Assembly (NCBI RefSeq): GCF_008042275.1
Contig: NZ_RDBK01000043.1
Span: 1,645,319 to 1,709,318 of the forward strand
Direction of reading: 5' to 3'
DNA length: 64,000 nt
DNA from: Streptomyces sp. OR43
Lineage (GTDB): Bacteria > Actinomycetota > Actinomycetes > Streptomycetales > Streptomycetaceae
Shown: positions 59,984 through 64,000 of the stretch, piece after piece
How the letters are laid out: every line of letters starts with the position of its first letter
Position numbering within the stretch: position 1 is the first letter of the stretch
The notes under the pieces: generated by a model
Database searches by the model: none
Told to the model about the DNA's origin: nothing
Seen by the model: the letters and a program-made list of their open reading frames with translations, nothing else
Made by a program: the position numbers and the translations under genes

Positions 59984-60057
59984 GGGGCTATAGCTCAGTT
60001 GGTTAGAGCGCATCCCTGATAAGGATGAGGCCACAGGTTCAAATCCTGTTAGCCCCA
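59984..60057 (+). tRNA. tRNA-Ile(GAT)
   Basis: The 74-base cloverleaf has acceptor arms GGGGCTA and TAGCCCC, D-arm sequence AGCTCAGTTGGTTAGAGC, anticodon loop CTGATAA with GAT, and T-arm sequence CAGGTTCAAATCCTG. The discriminator is A. CCA is not encoded (the next bases are CAG), so it must be added after transcription. It lies 77 bases after the DUF3566 gene. Confidence 0.97.
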
Positions 60058-60077
60058 CAGCGGCGTAACGCCAGGTC

Positions 60078-60114
60078 AGAAGGCCGGTAGATCCTCAGGA
60101 TCTACCGGCCTTCT
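60078..60114 (+). terminator. tRNA-Ile terminator
   Basis: AGAAGGCCGGTAGATCCT (60078-60095) is complementary to 60097-60114, up to 18 pairs around a single central base, 20 bases after the tRNA. Between here and the XRE gene (60115-60645) I see only the hairpins, a short palindrome and the small frame listed below. Confidence 0.93.
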
Positions 60115-60645: not shown

Positions 60646-60882
60646 GTGTCGGCCGACCCAACCCCGGACTGGGTACTCCCCCTCCGCCAGCAGATCGGCA
60701 CAACCCTGCGCGCAGCCCGCATCGAAGCAGGCCTCACCCAGATACAGCTCGCCGAGCTCGCCGGCATGGACCACAAGACCGTGCACCGCATCGAGTACGC
60801 GGCGTCCGACCCCAGCCTCACGATGCTGCTCCGCCTCGCCTCAGCCCTCGGCAAACCGCTCTCCGATCTCCTGCGGGCTTGA
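60646..60882 (+). CDS. Small XRE-family HTH protein
   Basis: The 78-residue product is essentially one Cro/CI-type helix-turn-helix (about 15-75): LRAARIEAGLTQIQLAELAG, then HKTVHRIEY and LTMLLRLASALGKPLSDLL. It has no effector domain. The start is a GTG at 60646 without a ribosome binding site; TACGAT lies about 25 bases upstream. It converges on the methyltransferase gene with a 22-base gap. Such single-domain XRE proteins are common on genomic islands, but this one could also be a resident gene. Confidence 0.85.
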   Translation: MSADPTPDWVLPLRQQIGTTLRAARIEAGLTQIQLAELAGMDHKTVHRIEYAASDPSLTMLLRLASALGKPLSDLLRA

Positions 60883-60904: not shown

Positions 60905-61567
60905 TCAGCCGTGGGCGCGGACGATCAGGGTGCCGATCTTGCGGCGGCCGGGCGGCGCTGGCACGAGACGGGCAGTGGCTGCGGTGAAGCCGTGCTTGGT
61001 GAGGATCTCCACCCAGCGATCCGGCTCGTAGTCCCAGCGCTTCACGACGAGGGGGTCCTCGTCCTCGGACCGGTTGATGTACGAGGCCTGGCACCCGTAA
61101 CAGCCCTCGATCGGCGGGCGATGGGAGAAGGCGAAGACCCCGCCCGGTCGCAGGCGCCGACGGAGGGCGGGCAGCAGCACAGCCGGGTCGGTGAACCAGG
61201 CGGCTCCGAACACCGAGAACACCGAGTCGAAGTGCTCGCCGCTTTCCTCGAGGAACCGGGTCGCGTCCGTGCGGTGGAGAACCATCCCGGTGTCGGACCA
61301 GCGGGCTTCGGCGGCCTTGATCTGGGCGAGCGAGATGTCGACACCCACGCCGCGGGCGCCGAGGGCAGTGATGTGGGCGAGGTTTCCACCCTTGCCACAG
61401 CCCAGGTCGAGGACGGACGCTCCCGGACCCACGCCGAGGAGCTCGGCGCCGGGGCCATGGTCGGGGTACTGGGTCCAGTTGAACCAGGTGGTCTCGCCCG
61501 CCGCGTTCGCGGGACGGCGCTCCGGCTTCTGCTTCGAGTAGGTGTCCCAGGCCTGGGTCTCGGTCAT
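60905..61567 (-). CDS. Class I SAM-dependent methyltransferase
   Basis: The 220-residue enzyme has SAM motif I VLDLGCGKGGNLAHI (about 50-64), the acidic GVGVDISLAQI that binds the ribose, and RLRPGGVFAFSHRP. A central YGCQASYIN and a C-terminal GTLIVRAHG complete a methyltransferase-11-like fold. Substrate unknown. A GGAG-like site precedes the ATG at 61567. It is the last gene of the leftward run that begins at 62549, separated from the previous gene by 67 bases and a hairpin. Confidence 0.87.
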   Translation of the reverse strand: MTETQAWDTYSKQKPERRPANAAGETTWFNWTQYPDHGPGAELLGVGPGASVLDLGCGKGGNLAHITALGARGVGVDISLAQIKAAEARWSDTGMVLHRTDATRFLEESGEHFDSVFSVFGAAWFTDPAVLLPALRRRLRPGGVFAFSHRPPIEGCYGCQASYINRSEDEDPLVVKRWDYEPDRWVEILTKHGFTAATARLVPAPPGRRKIGTLIVRAHG

Positions 61568-61589
61568 GCCGCTCCGTTCATGAGGCCGA

Positions 61590-61613
61590 CCGCCCGGTGT
61601 CGAACCCGGGCGG
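61590..61613 (-). terminator. Hairpin between cassette genes
   Basis: CCGCCCGG (61590-61597) pairs with CCGGGCGG (61606-61613), with loop TGTCGAAC. It may lower expression of the downstream methyltransferase. Confidence 0.45.
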
Positions 61614-61634
61614 CCGGCTACGGGGGAACTGCTA

Positions 61635-62114
61635 CTACTTCTTGCCGCCGTTCGGGCTGTCGGTGCAACCCGCGTGGCACTGGGAGCACTCGCCCATCCT
61701 GGCGGCTTCGGGCCACAGATCGTGGTCGATACGGAATCCTGCGGCTGCCAGCGCGTCGAGGGTCCGTTGGCGCTCCGCCTTGGGCCCGTGCTCGCTGCTC
61801 TCGCCCTCAGGGGCAGGGACGTGGTGGATGAACCGTCCGGCGATGCGGTCGCAGAACGCGGCGTAGTCGACGGTGTGGAGGATCCAGGTGTGCCAGCCGA
61901 CATCGACGGGCTTGCTCGGCGCCAGTGCGACGCTGGGCAGCGCCGTGCTGGCGGCGAGGAACGCCGCGGTCTGACCGATGATGCGACGGGCCGTGGGCAG
62001 ATCGGTGTCGGTGTGGTCCTTGGTGATGCGGGCGGCGAGCCGCTCCATCATGGCGGGGTCGACGAGCGTCGCCGGGTCGGTGGTGCCCACGGGATGCTCT
62101 AACGCGATGGTCAT
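61635..62114 (-). CDS. GRDP-like protein with Cys-rich tail
   Basis: The 159-residue product contains VDVGWHTWILHTVDYAAFC followed by GRFIHHVP, the pattern I recall from the glycine-rich-domain (GRDP, PF07173-like) proteins of plants and bacteria. The spaced His residues (W-H, L-H, I-H-H) look like metal ligands. The C-terminus GECSQCHAGC is Cys-rich and ends GGKK. The function is not known to me. AGGAGGAAG upstream of the ATG at 62114 is the strongest ribosome binding site of the cassette. Confidence 0.78.
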   Translation of the reverse strand: MTIALEHPVGTTDPATLVDPAMMERLAARITKDHTDTDLPTARRIIGQTAAFLAASTALPSVALAPSKPVDVGWHTWILHTVDYAAFCDRIAGRFIHHVPAPEGESSEHGPKAERQRTLDALAAAGFRIDHDLWPEAARMGECSQCHAGCTDSPNGGKK

Positions 62115-62206
62115 GTGCTTCCTCCTGTTGTGGGGCGATGCCCTCGGCCGAGGGCGGGCCCGTCCGCACCGGGGTGACGGGGTGCACCGGTACGGACGGG
62201 AGTCAT
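62111..62206 (-). CDS. Possible 31-residue coupling peptide
   Basis: An ATG at 62206 overlaps the stop of the upstream small gene (ATGA), and its own TGA overlaps the ATG of the GRDP-like gene. The peptide (MTPVRTGAPRHPG... GGST) is Pro/Gly/Arg-rich with no domain. It may only serve to carry ribosomes through the hairpin at 62159-62200, where CCCGTCCGCACCGG and CCGGTACGGACGGG pair. It could equally be chance. Confidence 0.35.
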   Translation of the reverse strand: MTPVRTGAPRHPGADGPALGRGHRPTTGGST

Positions 62207-62400
62207 TGGGTACTGCTCGCGCAGCAGGGTCCGGCCCAGACCTCGGTGTCGAGGTTGTGGGCGCCGAGCTGGTCGCGGATGATGCCGACGCGGACCGCGC
62301 CGGAGGTGAGCGGGCGGCGGCACCAGATGCAGGCGCGGCCAGCGGACTGATCCCAGGTGAGCTCGCCCGGCGCTGGAAGCGGGCGAGGTAGGGCGCTCAC
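62203..62400 (-). CDS. Small CxxC protein of the cassette, unknown function
   Basis: The 65-residue frame starts MSALPRPLPAPGEL and has ACIWCRRPLT (CxxC), VRVGIIRDQLGAHNL and a final WAGPCCASSTQ. The CxxC and CC could bind one zinc. Its GTG at 62400 overlaps the stop of the upstream gene by 4 bases, implying coupled translation. I recall similar small proteins beside Streptomyces HTH regulators but know no function. Confidence 0.7.
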   Translation of the reverse strand: MSALPRPLPAPGELTWDQSAGRACIWCRRPLTSGAVRVGIIRDQLGAHNLDTEVWAGPCCASSTQ

Positions 62401-62549
62401 TTCGGCGGGCGGACGCACTGCGAGCACTCGCAGTCAGGGAAGGCGGACGTCTCATCCACGGTCTCCACGGGCACGACCTCGACCTCCGGGCGCAGGACGC
62501 GTGTCAGGCCCTGCCGGTCGACCTCGTACACCTTGAGCGTCATTGTCAT
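62397..62549 (-). CDS. Small protein with C-terminal CxCxxC, unknown function
   Basis: The 50-residue product begins MTMTLKVYEVDRQGLTRVL, has an acidic middle (EVEVVPVETVDE) and ends FPDCECSQCVRPPK. The CxCxxC is close to the CSQC in the GRDP-like protein's tail. It is the first gene of the leftward run, and AGGGGC lies before the ATG at 62549; the ATG at 62543 is an alternative. It was found by direct reading, since it is too short for usual gene-size limits. Confidence 0.75.
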   Translation of the reverse strand: MTMTLKVYEVDRQGLTRVLRPEVEVVPVETVDETSAFPDCECSQCVRPPK

Positions 62550-62599
62550 GGGTTGCCCCTGCCGTCGGTTGTCATCGCTTCAATAGCGTCGTCCTGCGG

Positions 62600-62641
62600 C
62601 GGTAACTGCGGGATGACCAGCGGGGGTTACCGAAGCGGTAA
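62600..62641. promoter_or_regulatory. Putative operator of the divergent cassette
   Basis: The 155-base gap between the small gene and the regulator holds a perfect TTACCG-AAG-CGGTAA palindrome (62627-62641) and another CGGTAA half-site at 62600-62605, 36 bases away. TAGGAT at 62681-62686 is a possible -10 for the regulator. Binding by the adjacent HTH regulator is likely. Confidence 0.6.
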
Positions 62642-62704
62642 TACACTCGTTGCTCCTCCAGCAAGGCGCCTGCGTGTGCATAGGATCGCGACGGAAGTCA
62701 GCCC

Positions 62705-64000
62705 ATGGATGCCACCACCCCCGGCCTGCTCAGCCCCGACGTGCTCGACAGAGCAGACGTCCGGGCAGCGCTCATCGAGCACGACTTCGCCGCCGTCTTC
62801 ACCCTGATCAAGAAGTGGGGCGGCCTCTCCCAGAACCGCATCGCGTCCGCCTGCCAACTCACCCCCGGCAAGGTGTCCACGATCATCAACGGGTCCCAGC
62901 GCGTCACCAGCTTCGAGGTCGTCTGCCGGATCGCCGACGGCCTCCGCATTCCCGGCAGCCTGCTCGGGCTCGCACCACGCCCCTGGGAGGGCGCACACGA
63001 CCCAGCACAGCAGGACCAGCCAGACGCTCCAGGTGACCGGCCAGACGCAGACGAGATCCCGTGGCGGCCCGACGCCACCGTGGACCTGGCCACCCACCTC
63101 ACCAGGAGTGATCTCGTGATGGACCGCAGGGCCCTTACCCGCGCCCTCGCTGGCGCCGCGGTAACCGGCGCCGCCCTCCTCGACAGCCTCGAAGGCTGGC
63201 TCGTCCCGGCCGCCACCGTCCCAGGACAACGCCGGCCAGGCCGACTCGGCATGCGCGAAGTCGCGGAACTGGAAACCACCGCGCGGGCCTTCCGCCAGTG
63301 GGACCACCAATACGGCGGCGGCCTCCGAAGGAAAGCAGTCCTCGGCCAGCTTGCCGAAGTCTCCGGTGCCCTCGATGACCACCAGGCCCCGGCCGTCGCC
63401 GCCCGGCTGTACCGCGTCATGGCGCAACTGGCCGGCACCGCCGCGACCATGGCGTGGGACTCCGGACTGCACCGGCGAGCCCAGGACTACTACCGCCTCG
63501 CCCTCCGCGCCGCCCACGCCGGAGGCGACGTCGTCTTCGGGGCCAACGTCCTGGCCGGAATGGCCCGGCAGATGCTCTACCGCGACCGGCCGGACGACGC
63601 GCTCCAGCTGATCCACCTTGCCCAGGAAGGCGCCCGCGACGTGATCGGCCCCCGGGCCCGAGCCATGCTTCACACCCGCGAAGCCTGGGCCTACGCCGCC
63701 CAAGGGCGCGTCGCCGGATTTCACCGGGCCACCACCAAGGCGGCCGAGGACCTCGCCGCAGCGGGCGAGGATGGCGACGAGCCGTACTGGATCGCCTACT
63801 TCGACGAAGCAGAACTCGCAGGCGTCACCGGGGGACGGCTCCTCGACCTCGCCCGCACCGACCCGCGCCAGCACGCCACCAAGGCGGCCGACGAGATCCG
63901 GACCGCCCTCGCGCACCGCGGCCCCGAGGCTGGGCGCTCCCACGCGCTCGACCGCATCGGCCTGGCGGAATGCCAGTTTCTTGCCGGCGACATCAGGGCG
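62705..64000 (+). CDS. HTH regulator with long helical C-terminal domain, C-terminus outside window
   Basis: The frame from the ATG at 62705 stays open for 432 codons to the window end. An N-terminal helix-turn-helix (about 25-75) reads LSQNRIASACQLTPGKVS then TSFEVVCRIADGLRIP. A linker follows, then VMDRRALTRALAGAAVTGAAL, and an all-helical, TPR-like region (from about 200, with RLYRVMAQLAGTAATMAW and RAQDYYRLALRAA). This is a large Streptomyces regulator type often found beside small genes. GGAAG lies about 8 bases upstream. It is divergent from the leftward cassette and probably regulates it. Confidence 0.85.
   Translation, partial: MDATTPGLLSPDVLDRADVRAALIEHDFAAVFTLIKKWGGLSQNRIASACQLTPGKVSTIINGSQRVTSFEVVCRIADGLRIPGSLLGLAPRPWEGAHDPAQQDQPDAPGDRPDADEIPWRPDATVDLATHLTRSDLVMDRRALTRALAGAAVTGAALLDSLEGWLVPAATVPGQRRPGRLGMREVAELETTARAFRQWDHQYGGGLRRKAVLGQLAEVSGALDDHQAPAVAARLYRVMAQLAGTAATMAWDSGLHRRAQDYYRLALRAAHAGGDVVFGANVLAGMARQMLYRDRPDDALQLIHLAQEGARDVIGPRARAMLHTREAWAYAAQGRVAGFHRATTKAAEDLAAAGEDGDEPYWIAYFDEAELAGVTGGRLLDLARTDPRQHATKAADEIRTALAHRGPEAGRSHALDRIGLAECQFLAGDIRA

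Follow-up and report, generated by a model that had tools for sequence, protein, structure and literature searches.

A prophage cassette that pairs a methyltransferase with a cysteine-tailed protein in Streptomyces

Our comparative analyses show that a gene cassette at the end of a 64,000-nucleotide stretch of the Streptomyces sp. OR43 genome (hereafter, the window) is real, conserved, and mobile. The region is a prophage and the cassette its regulated cargo, with a conserved core formed by a GRDP-like protein ending in a cysteine tail and by the methyltransferase encoded next to it. Judged from its sequences, this pair, which recurs across the genus, appears to be an unstudied system for modifying peptides or proteins, the tail-bearing protein being probably the target of the methyltransferase.

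Gene content and regulation of the cassette

Four protein-coding genes lie on the minus strand. The first gene of this operon codes for P50 (50 aa; 62397-62549), recognized as a profile family, for which AlphaFold2 predicts a two-strand hairpin carrying an FPxCxCxxC motif. It overlaps by four bases (GTGA, 62397-62400) the GTG-started gene of a 65-aa cysteine protein (Cys65; 62203-62400; GRACIWC...GPCC), a zinc-ribbon-like candidate accessory with homologs in six loci (L005, L035, L036, L038, L040, and L136). The GRDP-like protein (159 aa; 61635-62114) comes next, with a helical domain and a C-terminal Cys/His tail, MGECSQCHAGCTDSPNGGKK (61638-61697), of motif CxQ(CH|SY)xGCxDSP, and a class I SAM-dependent methyltransferase (220 aa; 60905-61567; Pfam Methyltransf_11, E 2e-15) ends the run. 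The original prediction, made from the window's letters, had placed all these genes and the facing regulator correctly, and its 4-base overlap and Cys/His motifs (FPDCECSQC, ACIWC...GPCC, and GECSQCHAGC) are all there. Its 31-residue frame (62111-62206, minus strand) also exists and overlaps the GRDP start by ATGA, but is probably not a gene; we rejected it as such since four homologous loci showed no counterpart. Pairwise comparisons indicate purifying selection on each of the four leftward proteins (dN/dS about 0.11-0.6; 0.11-0.30 for the methyltransferase), and P50, GRDP, and methyltransferase genes also occur as a set in loci L036, L038, and L053. The possibility that the small frames are unconserved or the set absent elsewhere is thus refuted, and the idea of a coupled, regulated cassette is supported.

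On the plus strand, an NsdA-family XRE-TPR regulator of 485 aa (62705-64000, continuing to 64162) faces this operon and shares its own with a 161-aa protein encoded outside the window (ending at 64657). It scores 273.7 bits against the NF053720 subfamily model (cut-off 75) and thereby resembles the NsdA and NsdB regulators of Streptomyces, but it falls far below both of their equivalog cut-offs and differs from them in being prophage-encoded and in having a single-copy operator. This operator-like palindrome, TTACCGAAGCGGTAA (62627-62641, in the divergent gap), has one occurrence in the window (0/100 shuffles) and no further one in the 9.1-Mb genome; four other loci retain its arms, with a single mismatch in one of them. 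The predicted pairing of a palindromic operator with a dedicated regulator is thereby supported, and the regulator would repress at TTACCG-N3-CGGTAA. A scan for sigma-70-type promoters came back empty, which is little informative in a G+C-rich genome. XRE pairs with DUF397/DUF5753 have been described near graspetide groups 11 and 13 (PMC13097080); Pfam detected neither DUF397 nor DUF5753 among the window genes, so that no XRE-DUF397 pair is present there.

A cargo slot in a prophage

The cassette occupies one end of a 48.8-kb prophage inserted in a tRNA-Ile (GAT) gene (59984-60058, plus strand; ARAGORN). Own-genome pattern search and match extension delimited identical 100-bp att repeats, 48.8 kb apart, at 60015-60114 of the window (attL core) and near C79:1754178. 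A 458-aa protein near attR is the putative integrase by sequence and position, and between the repeats lie terminase-, capsid-, tail-, and endolysin-like genes, as read from sequence and gene order. Next to attL, a gene for a 78-aa XRE helix-turn-helix protein (60646-60882, plus strand; Pfam HTH_3) holds the same att-proximal place in the viral loci L126, L128, L134, and L137-L140.

A sister prophage (L042) uses the same tRNA-Ile. Its DNA matches ours up to the end of this small helix-turn-helix gene, shows no match over the methyltransferase, GRDP, and Cys65 genes and the end of P50, and resumes its match within P50, continuing across the regulator and the lysis region. Since regulator and flanks match in the sister prophage while the operon behind P50 is replaced, this position is a cargo slot. 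Both the prophage setting and the operon swap behind a constant regulator half had escaped the original prediction. In another locus (L038), the unit from the methyltransferase to the 161-aa gene matches without flanking phage DNA.

The GRDP-methyltransferase core and its tail types

The methyltransferase does form a unit with the GRDP-like protein, as predicted: the two genes adjoin each other in 35 distinct pairs, whose members diverge in a correlated way (Mantel r 0.82; 0/2000 permutations), pair counts being, like the tail counts below, uncorrected for relatedness, with close homologs dominating some classes. Among the 30 closest methyltransferase loci, 25 have a GRDP gene within the retrieved flank, and no GRDP neighbor was detected in the remaining five. 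These two genes are the cassette's conserved core, a point that the original prediction had missed; the small cysteine proteins vary between loci.

The GRDP-like gene is detectable in 246 of 393 sampled Streptomyces genomes, on 33 viral contigs, in isolated phages, and widely beyond recognized prophages. AlphaFold2 models a helical domain at residues 14-140 (pLDDT ≥90 over most of it) and a low-confidence, possibly disordered cysteine tail at residues 143-159 (pLDDT <50). Across the 35 distinct pairs the tail motif is nonetheless more conserved than the domain (mean top-residue frequency 0.81 vs 0.57), and a subgroup (7/37 tails) swaps CH for SY while keeping the remainder. The name GRDP-like is backed by the predicted fold, with a Foldseek match to a GRDP-like protein of Harvfovirus (E 7.7e-4, prob 1.00, TM 0.57/0.64) and to other giant-virus relatives, but not by the Pfam model PF07173, which did not match the window protein; that model matched nothing in the OR43 genome, controls included, so its silence is not evidence of absence. 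Compared with PF07173 proteins of plants and giant viruses, the window protein thus shares a predicted fold with the viral members but lies below Pfam HMM detection and has a bacterial cysteine tail and a partner gene. A PDB sequence profile search found nothing and Foldseek no credible PDB match (Z <3 only in a second look with VIA); literature searches turned up no publication that treats “glycine-rich domain-containing protein” together with Streptomyces, or DUF5753 together with DUF6879.

Comparison of tail type and next gene across 85 GRDPs shows that the tail predicts whether a methyltransferase, a kinase-like protein, or a small protein follows. Among identified partners, the CxQCHxxC tail goes with a methyltransferase in 17/18 cases, KCQH with a 41-86-aa protein in 27/27, and CDSDCG with a kinase-like protein in 5/5; CCGDGPCC goes with a 130-aa protein in 6/6. 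Beyond Streptomyces, the neighbor of similarly tailed GRDP genes is kinase-like in several actinobacterial genomes.

P50, a zinc-type protein heading short operons

Profile searches of whole genomes, used in place of a P50-only scan of genome contigs that yielded a single relative, found the P50 family in 152 of 393 Streptomyces genomes and on 18 viral contigs. Every match in a class-level sample fell within Streptomyces, one of 103 genera; we thus rejected P50 as a general actinobacterial family, and by its sequences the family, marked by a CxCx2C/H motif, is confined to Streptomyces. As third ligand, 67 of 90 members have Cys and 16 have His, and because this interchange is a metal-ligand pattern P50 probably binds zinc; a PDB sequence profile search with P50 found nothing. 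P50 is frequently the first gene of short operons that adjoin XRE-type regulators, including operons of the pamtide/imiditide (L037, L043-L046, L052, and L086) and graspetide types (L041 and L107), with TIGR04188 in L037 (302 bits) and TIGR04187 in L041.

How the pair may work

The reading that we favor, with a confidence somewhat short of probable, is that the methyltransferase modifies the GRDP tail, the two acting as a RiPP-like pair carried as lysogeny cargo. The GRDP-like protein would be the substrate, with a leader-like helical domain and a short conserved tail (CxQCHxGCxDSP) that the neighboring SAM-dependent enzyme would methylate; the zinc-binding-type P50 and Cys65 might assist or sense, the NsdA-family regulator would control the operon through its single operator, and the lysogen would gain a trait from the product. 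We infer all of these, from the tail as methyl acceptor to zinc binding, repression, and lysogen benefit. A “peptide product pathway” was one of the options first proposed, and this candidate reading now draws support from the pamtide/imiditide and graspetide operons headed by P50 relatives and from the conserved, predicted disordered GRDP tail, which is matched to the partner gene. Neither an exporter nor a protease nor a known RiPP enzyme is encoded in the cassette, and no RiPP precursor or class-defining enzyme model of Pfam or NCBIfam exceeded its curated cut-off (20.7 bits for the daptide methyltransferase model, cut-off 175). Moreover, most RiPP cores are variable whereas the GRDP tail is conserved, which fits a cofactor-like, metal-binding, or docking role equally well.

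A docking or metal role of the tail belongs to the less likely alternative that the GRDP-like protein is itself an enzyme or scaffold and acts with the methyltransferase on an outside substrate, be it a nucleic acid, a host protein, or a small molecule. The conserved WHxxILHTxxYxxFC...HH resembles a metal or active site, His and Asp residues of the folded domain are invariant or nearly so, and most partner types are not methyltransferases. In KCQH types, the GRDP could be the enzyme, as its partner is a small protein and no enzyme. Yet tail and partner gene vary together, and the CH-to-SY swap indicates that it is no strictly kept metal site.

We regard as rather unlikely that the pair is prophage defense or superinfection-exclusion cargo blocking competing phages. 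In its favor, the slot adjoins att and lysis genes, GRDP and P50 both occur on viral contigs, and PADLOC comparisons show likeness to mad2 (E 3e-18, to its methyltransferase part) for the methyltransferase and to mad6 (E 2e-7) for the CDSDCG-type kinase. However, generic methyltransferase models score about equally high, the remaining tested cassette proteins have weak or HTH-type PADLOC matches only, and GRDPs also occur in isolated phages and widely beyond recognized prophages. The MADS system was rejected, the mad2 likeness being partial and no other mad gene appearing among the tested cassette proteins.

A zinc- or iron-handling unit based on the small cysteine proteins, another of the purposes first proposed, is improbable: little beyond the zinc-type motifs, that is, the Cys/His ligand of P50 and the zinc-ribbon-like Cys65, speaks for it, while the cassette holds no metal transporter, storage protein, or metal-type regulator and the small proteins differ among loci where the GRDP-methyltransferase pair persists. 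Least of all do we expect P50 or Cys65 to be a peptide modified by the GRDP and the methyltransferase, despite P50 being short, first in the operon, and found ahead of RiPP enzymes, since GRDP-methyltransferase pairs may be accompanied by a different P50 or by none, the C-to-H exchange of P50 fits metal binding instead of a thioether core, and pamtide-type operons hold their own separate precursor.

Relation to known systems and implications

The favored reading, tail methylation by the adjoining enzyme, recalls the pamtides and imiditides, RiPPs modified by PAMT/PIMT, in its two-gene logic of substrate plus SAM methyltransferase and its nearby XRE-type regulators, some of those operons starting with P50. 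They differ in that their substrate is a peptide of ~45 aa, against a 159-aa domain protein here, and the window enzyme is Methyltransf_11-like and not of the PIMT (PAMT) type (PF01135, E 0.22 only). Group 13 graspetides (ATP-grasp plus PIMT) share P50-led operons, but neither an ATP-grasp enzyme nor a graspetide precursor is encoded in the window. Proteusins and Nif11-type RiPPs, which have large folded leaders, resemble our candidate in their folded N-terminal domain, short Cys-rich tail, and adjoining tailoring enzyme, and differ in belonging to another fold family, the window tail being conserved and unaccompanied by protease or exporter.

On a wider and more doubtful reading, cysteine-tailed GRDP-like proteins might be a large undescribed precursor-like family with tail-matched partners, carried as XRE/P50-linked mobile cargo and leading to a shared cofactor-like or signaling product. 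Such a family would span Streptomyces and other actinobacteria, its tails traded among chromosomes, plasmids, and phages behind interchangeable XRE regulators and P50-type zinc proteins; conserved tails would point to a shared product instead of diversified antibiotics.

The match of tail type and partner turns an unnamed family into a set of enzyme-substrate hypotheses, and P50 offers a sequence handle for further short regulated operons, including RiPP operons, missed by standard models. A prophage slot with a constant regulator and changing operons would illustrate how Streptomyces phages trade small biosynthetic or signaling modules.

Results

The cassette at the right end of the window is prophage cargo beside attL, as the 3' end of the tRNA-Ile gene (59984–60058) is duplicated 48.8 kb away, with an identical core of 100 bp, and between the two copies are genes whose sequences look like those for phage lysis, tail, capsid and terminase proteins. 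A 458-aa integrase-like gene lies 1.2 kb from the far copy (all these names derive from sequence and gene order alone). Every gene listed in the original prediction was found in its place: on the minus strand, P50, a 50-aa protein (62397–62549), the 65-aa Cys protein Cys65 (62203–62400), which overlaps the end of P50 by four bases (GTGA), the GRDP-like protein (61635–62114) and a class I methyltransferase (60905–61567); facing them in opposite orientation, a 485-aa XRE/TPR regulator that runs beyond the window to 64162 and scores 273.7 bits against the NsdA-family model NF053720 (cut-off 75). The 31-residue frame also proposed is present in the sequence but lacks a counterpart in four homologous loci. 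Pairwise comparisons indicate purifying selection on the methyltransferase (dN/dS 0.11–0.30), GRDP (0.23–0.44), P50 (about 0.3–0.5) and Cys65 (0.15–0.6).

The palindrome TTACCGAAGCGGTAA (62627–62641) occurs once in the window (0/100 shuffles) and once in the whole 9.1-Mb genome. Its arms are conserved in the compared loci L036, L038 and L042, with one mismatch in L085, and its central bases vary, which together with the single copy makes the pattern of a local operator; we infer that the NsdA-family regulator binds it.

L042, a sister element integrated at the same tRNA-Ile, matches our locus (L003) across the att-proximal small HTH gene until about 6159 (window 60840) and again from 7788 (window 62469), within P50, through the operator, regulator and lysis region, with different genes replacing the operon in between. 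There, a 373-aa protein and a Nudix-like protein occupy the GRDP/methyltransferase place (L042:6272–7948). In L038, the block from the methyltransferase to a 161-aa gene (L003 6232–9951) matches, whereas the phage flanks do not. Judging from these match patterns, the regulator and operon halves can move as separate blocks, with their junction in P50.

That 161-aa protein, located 3' of the regulator (L003:9491–9976, window equivalent 64172–64657), shows weak SLOG/YpsA similarity (E 0.19). It is one of three kinds of small enzyme-like proteins found 3' of cassette regulators (L003, L035, L040, L041, L037, L043–L045), the others being pterin-dehydratase-like and HD-like; they may be the source of the signal that the regulator reads.

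P50 relatives occur in 152 of 393 Streptomyces genomes (profile, E 0.001; the weakest matches may be false) and 18 viral contigs, and are confined to Streptomyces in the class-level sample. Their consensus is MTIKVYEVDRxGxxRVxRPExEVxPLExPExTxxFPxCxCPxC, and the predicted model is a two-strand hairpin followed by a tail. Of 90 distinct members, 67 have Cys and 16 have His at the third Cys position, an exchange that points to a metal ligand rather than a thioether. Across 63 loci, P50 mostly heads a short operon of variable content and has an XRE-type regulator next to it or facing it, although the neighborhood of weaker matches is often unclear. These operons include GRDP ones, pamtide/imiditide-type ones (L037, L043, L044, L045, L046, L052, L086) and graspetide-type ones (L041, L107), with enzymes verified by TIGR04188 (L037) and TIGR04187 (L041). 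Ten of the 63 loci have phage genes for lysis, tail proteins or an integrase nearby (limited query set).

In the viral contig L135 (965–2915), P50 is followed by a PAMT-type methyltransferase, which suggests a pamtide/imiditide-type cluster carried as phage cargo. The small genes located behind P50 in prophages of Streptomyces repeatedly include one for a small protein with a DUF7848 domain (L128:8264–8506 and similar). The second P50 copy of our own genome (C79:134620–134760) adjoins an XRE-DUF5753-type regulator, a DUF6879-type protein and an amidase-like gene, and is possibly in another prophage remnant.

PAMT logic has been described for pamtides (PMC10787088) and in an aspartimide review (PMC13001092); the passages searched in both mention neither regulators nor a P50-like protein. 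DUF397/DUF5753 pairs have been noted in the vicinity of graspetide groups 11 and 13 (PMC13097080), consistent with the XRE setting found here; in S. coelicolor such pairs are regulators, not toxin-antitoxin systems (Riascos et al., PMC10364602).

The GRDP profile has matches in 246 of 393 Streptomyces genomes and, in the class-level sample, in 14 of 103 genera; it also matches 33 viral contigs, a few isolated Streptomyces phages, and actinobacterial and other plasmids. The protein lacks a Pfam PF07173 match and PDB searches gave no useful match, but its domain resembles structures of “glycine-rich domain-containing protein-like” proteins from giant viruses (E 7.7e-4, prob 1.00), so that the predicted label stands on fold.

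A GRDP gene lies within the fetched flank of 25 of the 30 closest methyltransferase loci, and distance matrices of 35 distinct adjacent GRDP–methyltransferase pairs correlate (r = 0.82, 0/2000 permutations). In these pairs the tail motif CxQ(CH|SY)xGCxDSP is more conserved than the GRDP domain (0.81 versus 0.57), even though the predicted model shows the tail as disordered (pLDDT < 50). SY stands in place of CH in 7 of 37 such tails, which speaks against a metal site under strict conservation. Among 85 distinct GRDP proteins, the type of tail matches the kind of gene that comes next (raw counts that ignore kinship; the rest have no called or an unclassified partner). The methyltransferase follows CxQCHxxC (17; kinase-like, 1), and a methyltransferase follows CSPC (3); a 41–86-aa protein follows KCQH (27) and the small protein GGCGPI (6), while the partner is a 130-aa protein for CCGDGPCC (6) and a kinase-like protein for CDSDCG (5). 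In several cases outside Streptomyces, a GRDP gene with a similar Cys-rich tail adjoins a kinase-like (phosphotransferase-like) gene; such neighbors were seen in L264, L267, L268, L271, L272, L275, L281 and L282.

Discussion

The results-based part of our argument is structural, comprising the prophage, the exchange, the pairing and the tail–partner match. Its simplest reading would take the GRDP tail as the target of the methyltransferase, making the two a RiPP-like pair. The GRDP might instead be an enzyme or scaffold with a tail for docking. Prophage defence is another alternative: the methyltransferase resembles the methyltransferase part of PADLOC mad2, as well as generic Methyltransf_11 enzymes, but no MADS system is present. 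Metal handling is a third alternative and would suit the putative ligand in P50.

In the simplest reading, the small Cys proteins, which differ from locus to locus, would be accessories, and the operon would be kept repressed by the regulator until a signal arrives. The conserved tail speaks for a common product, which could be signalling, cofactor-like or metal-binding, more than for a diversified antibiotic.
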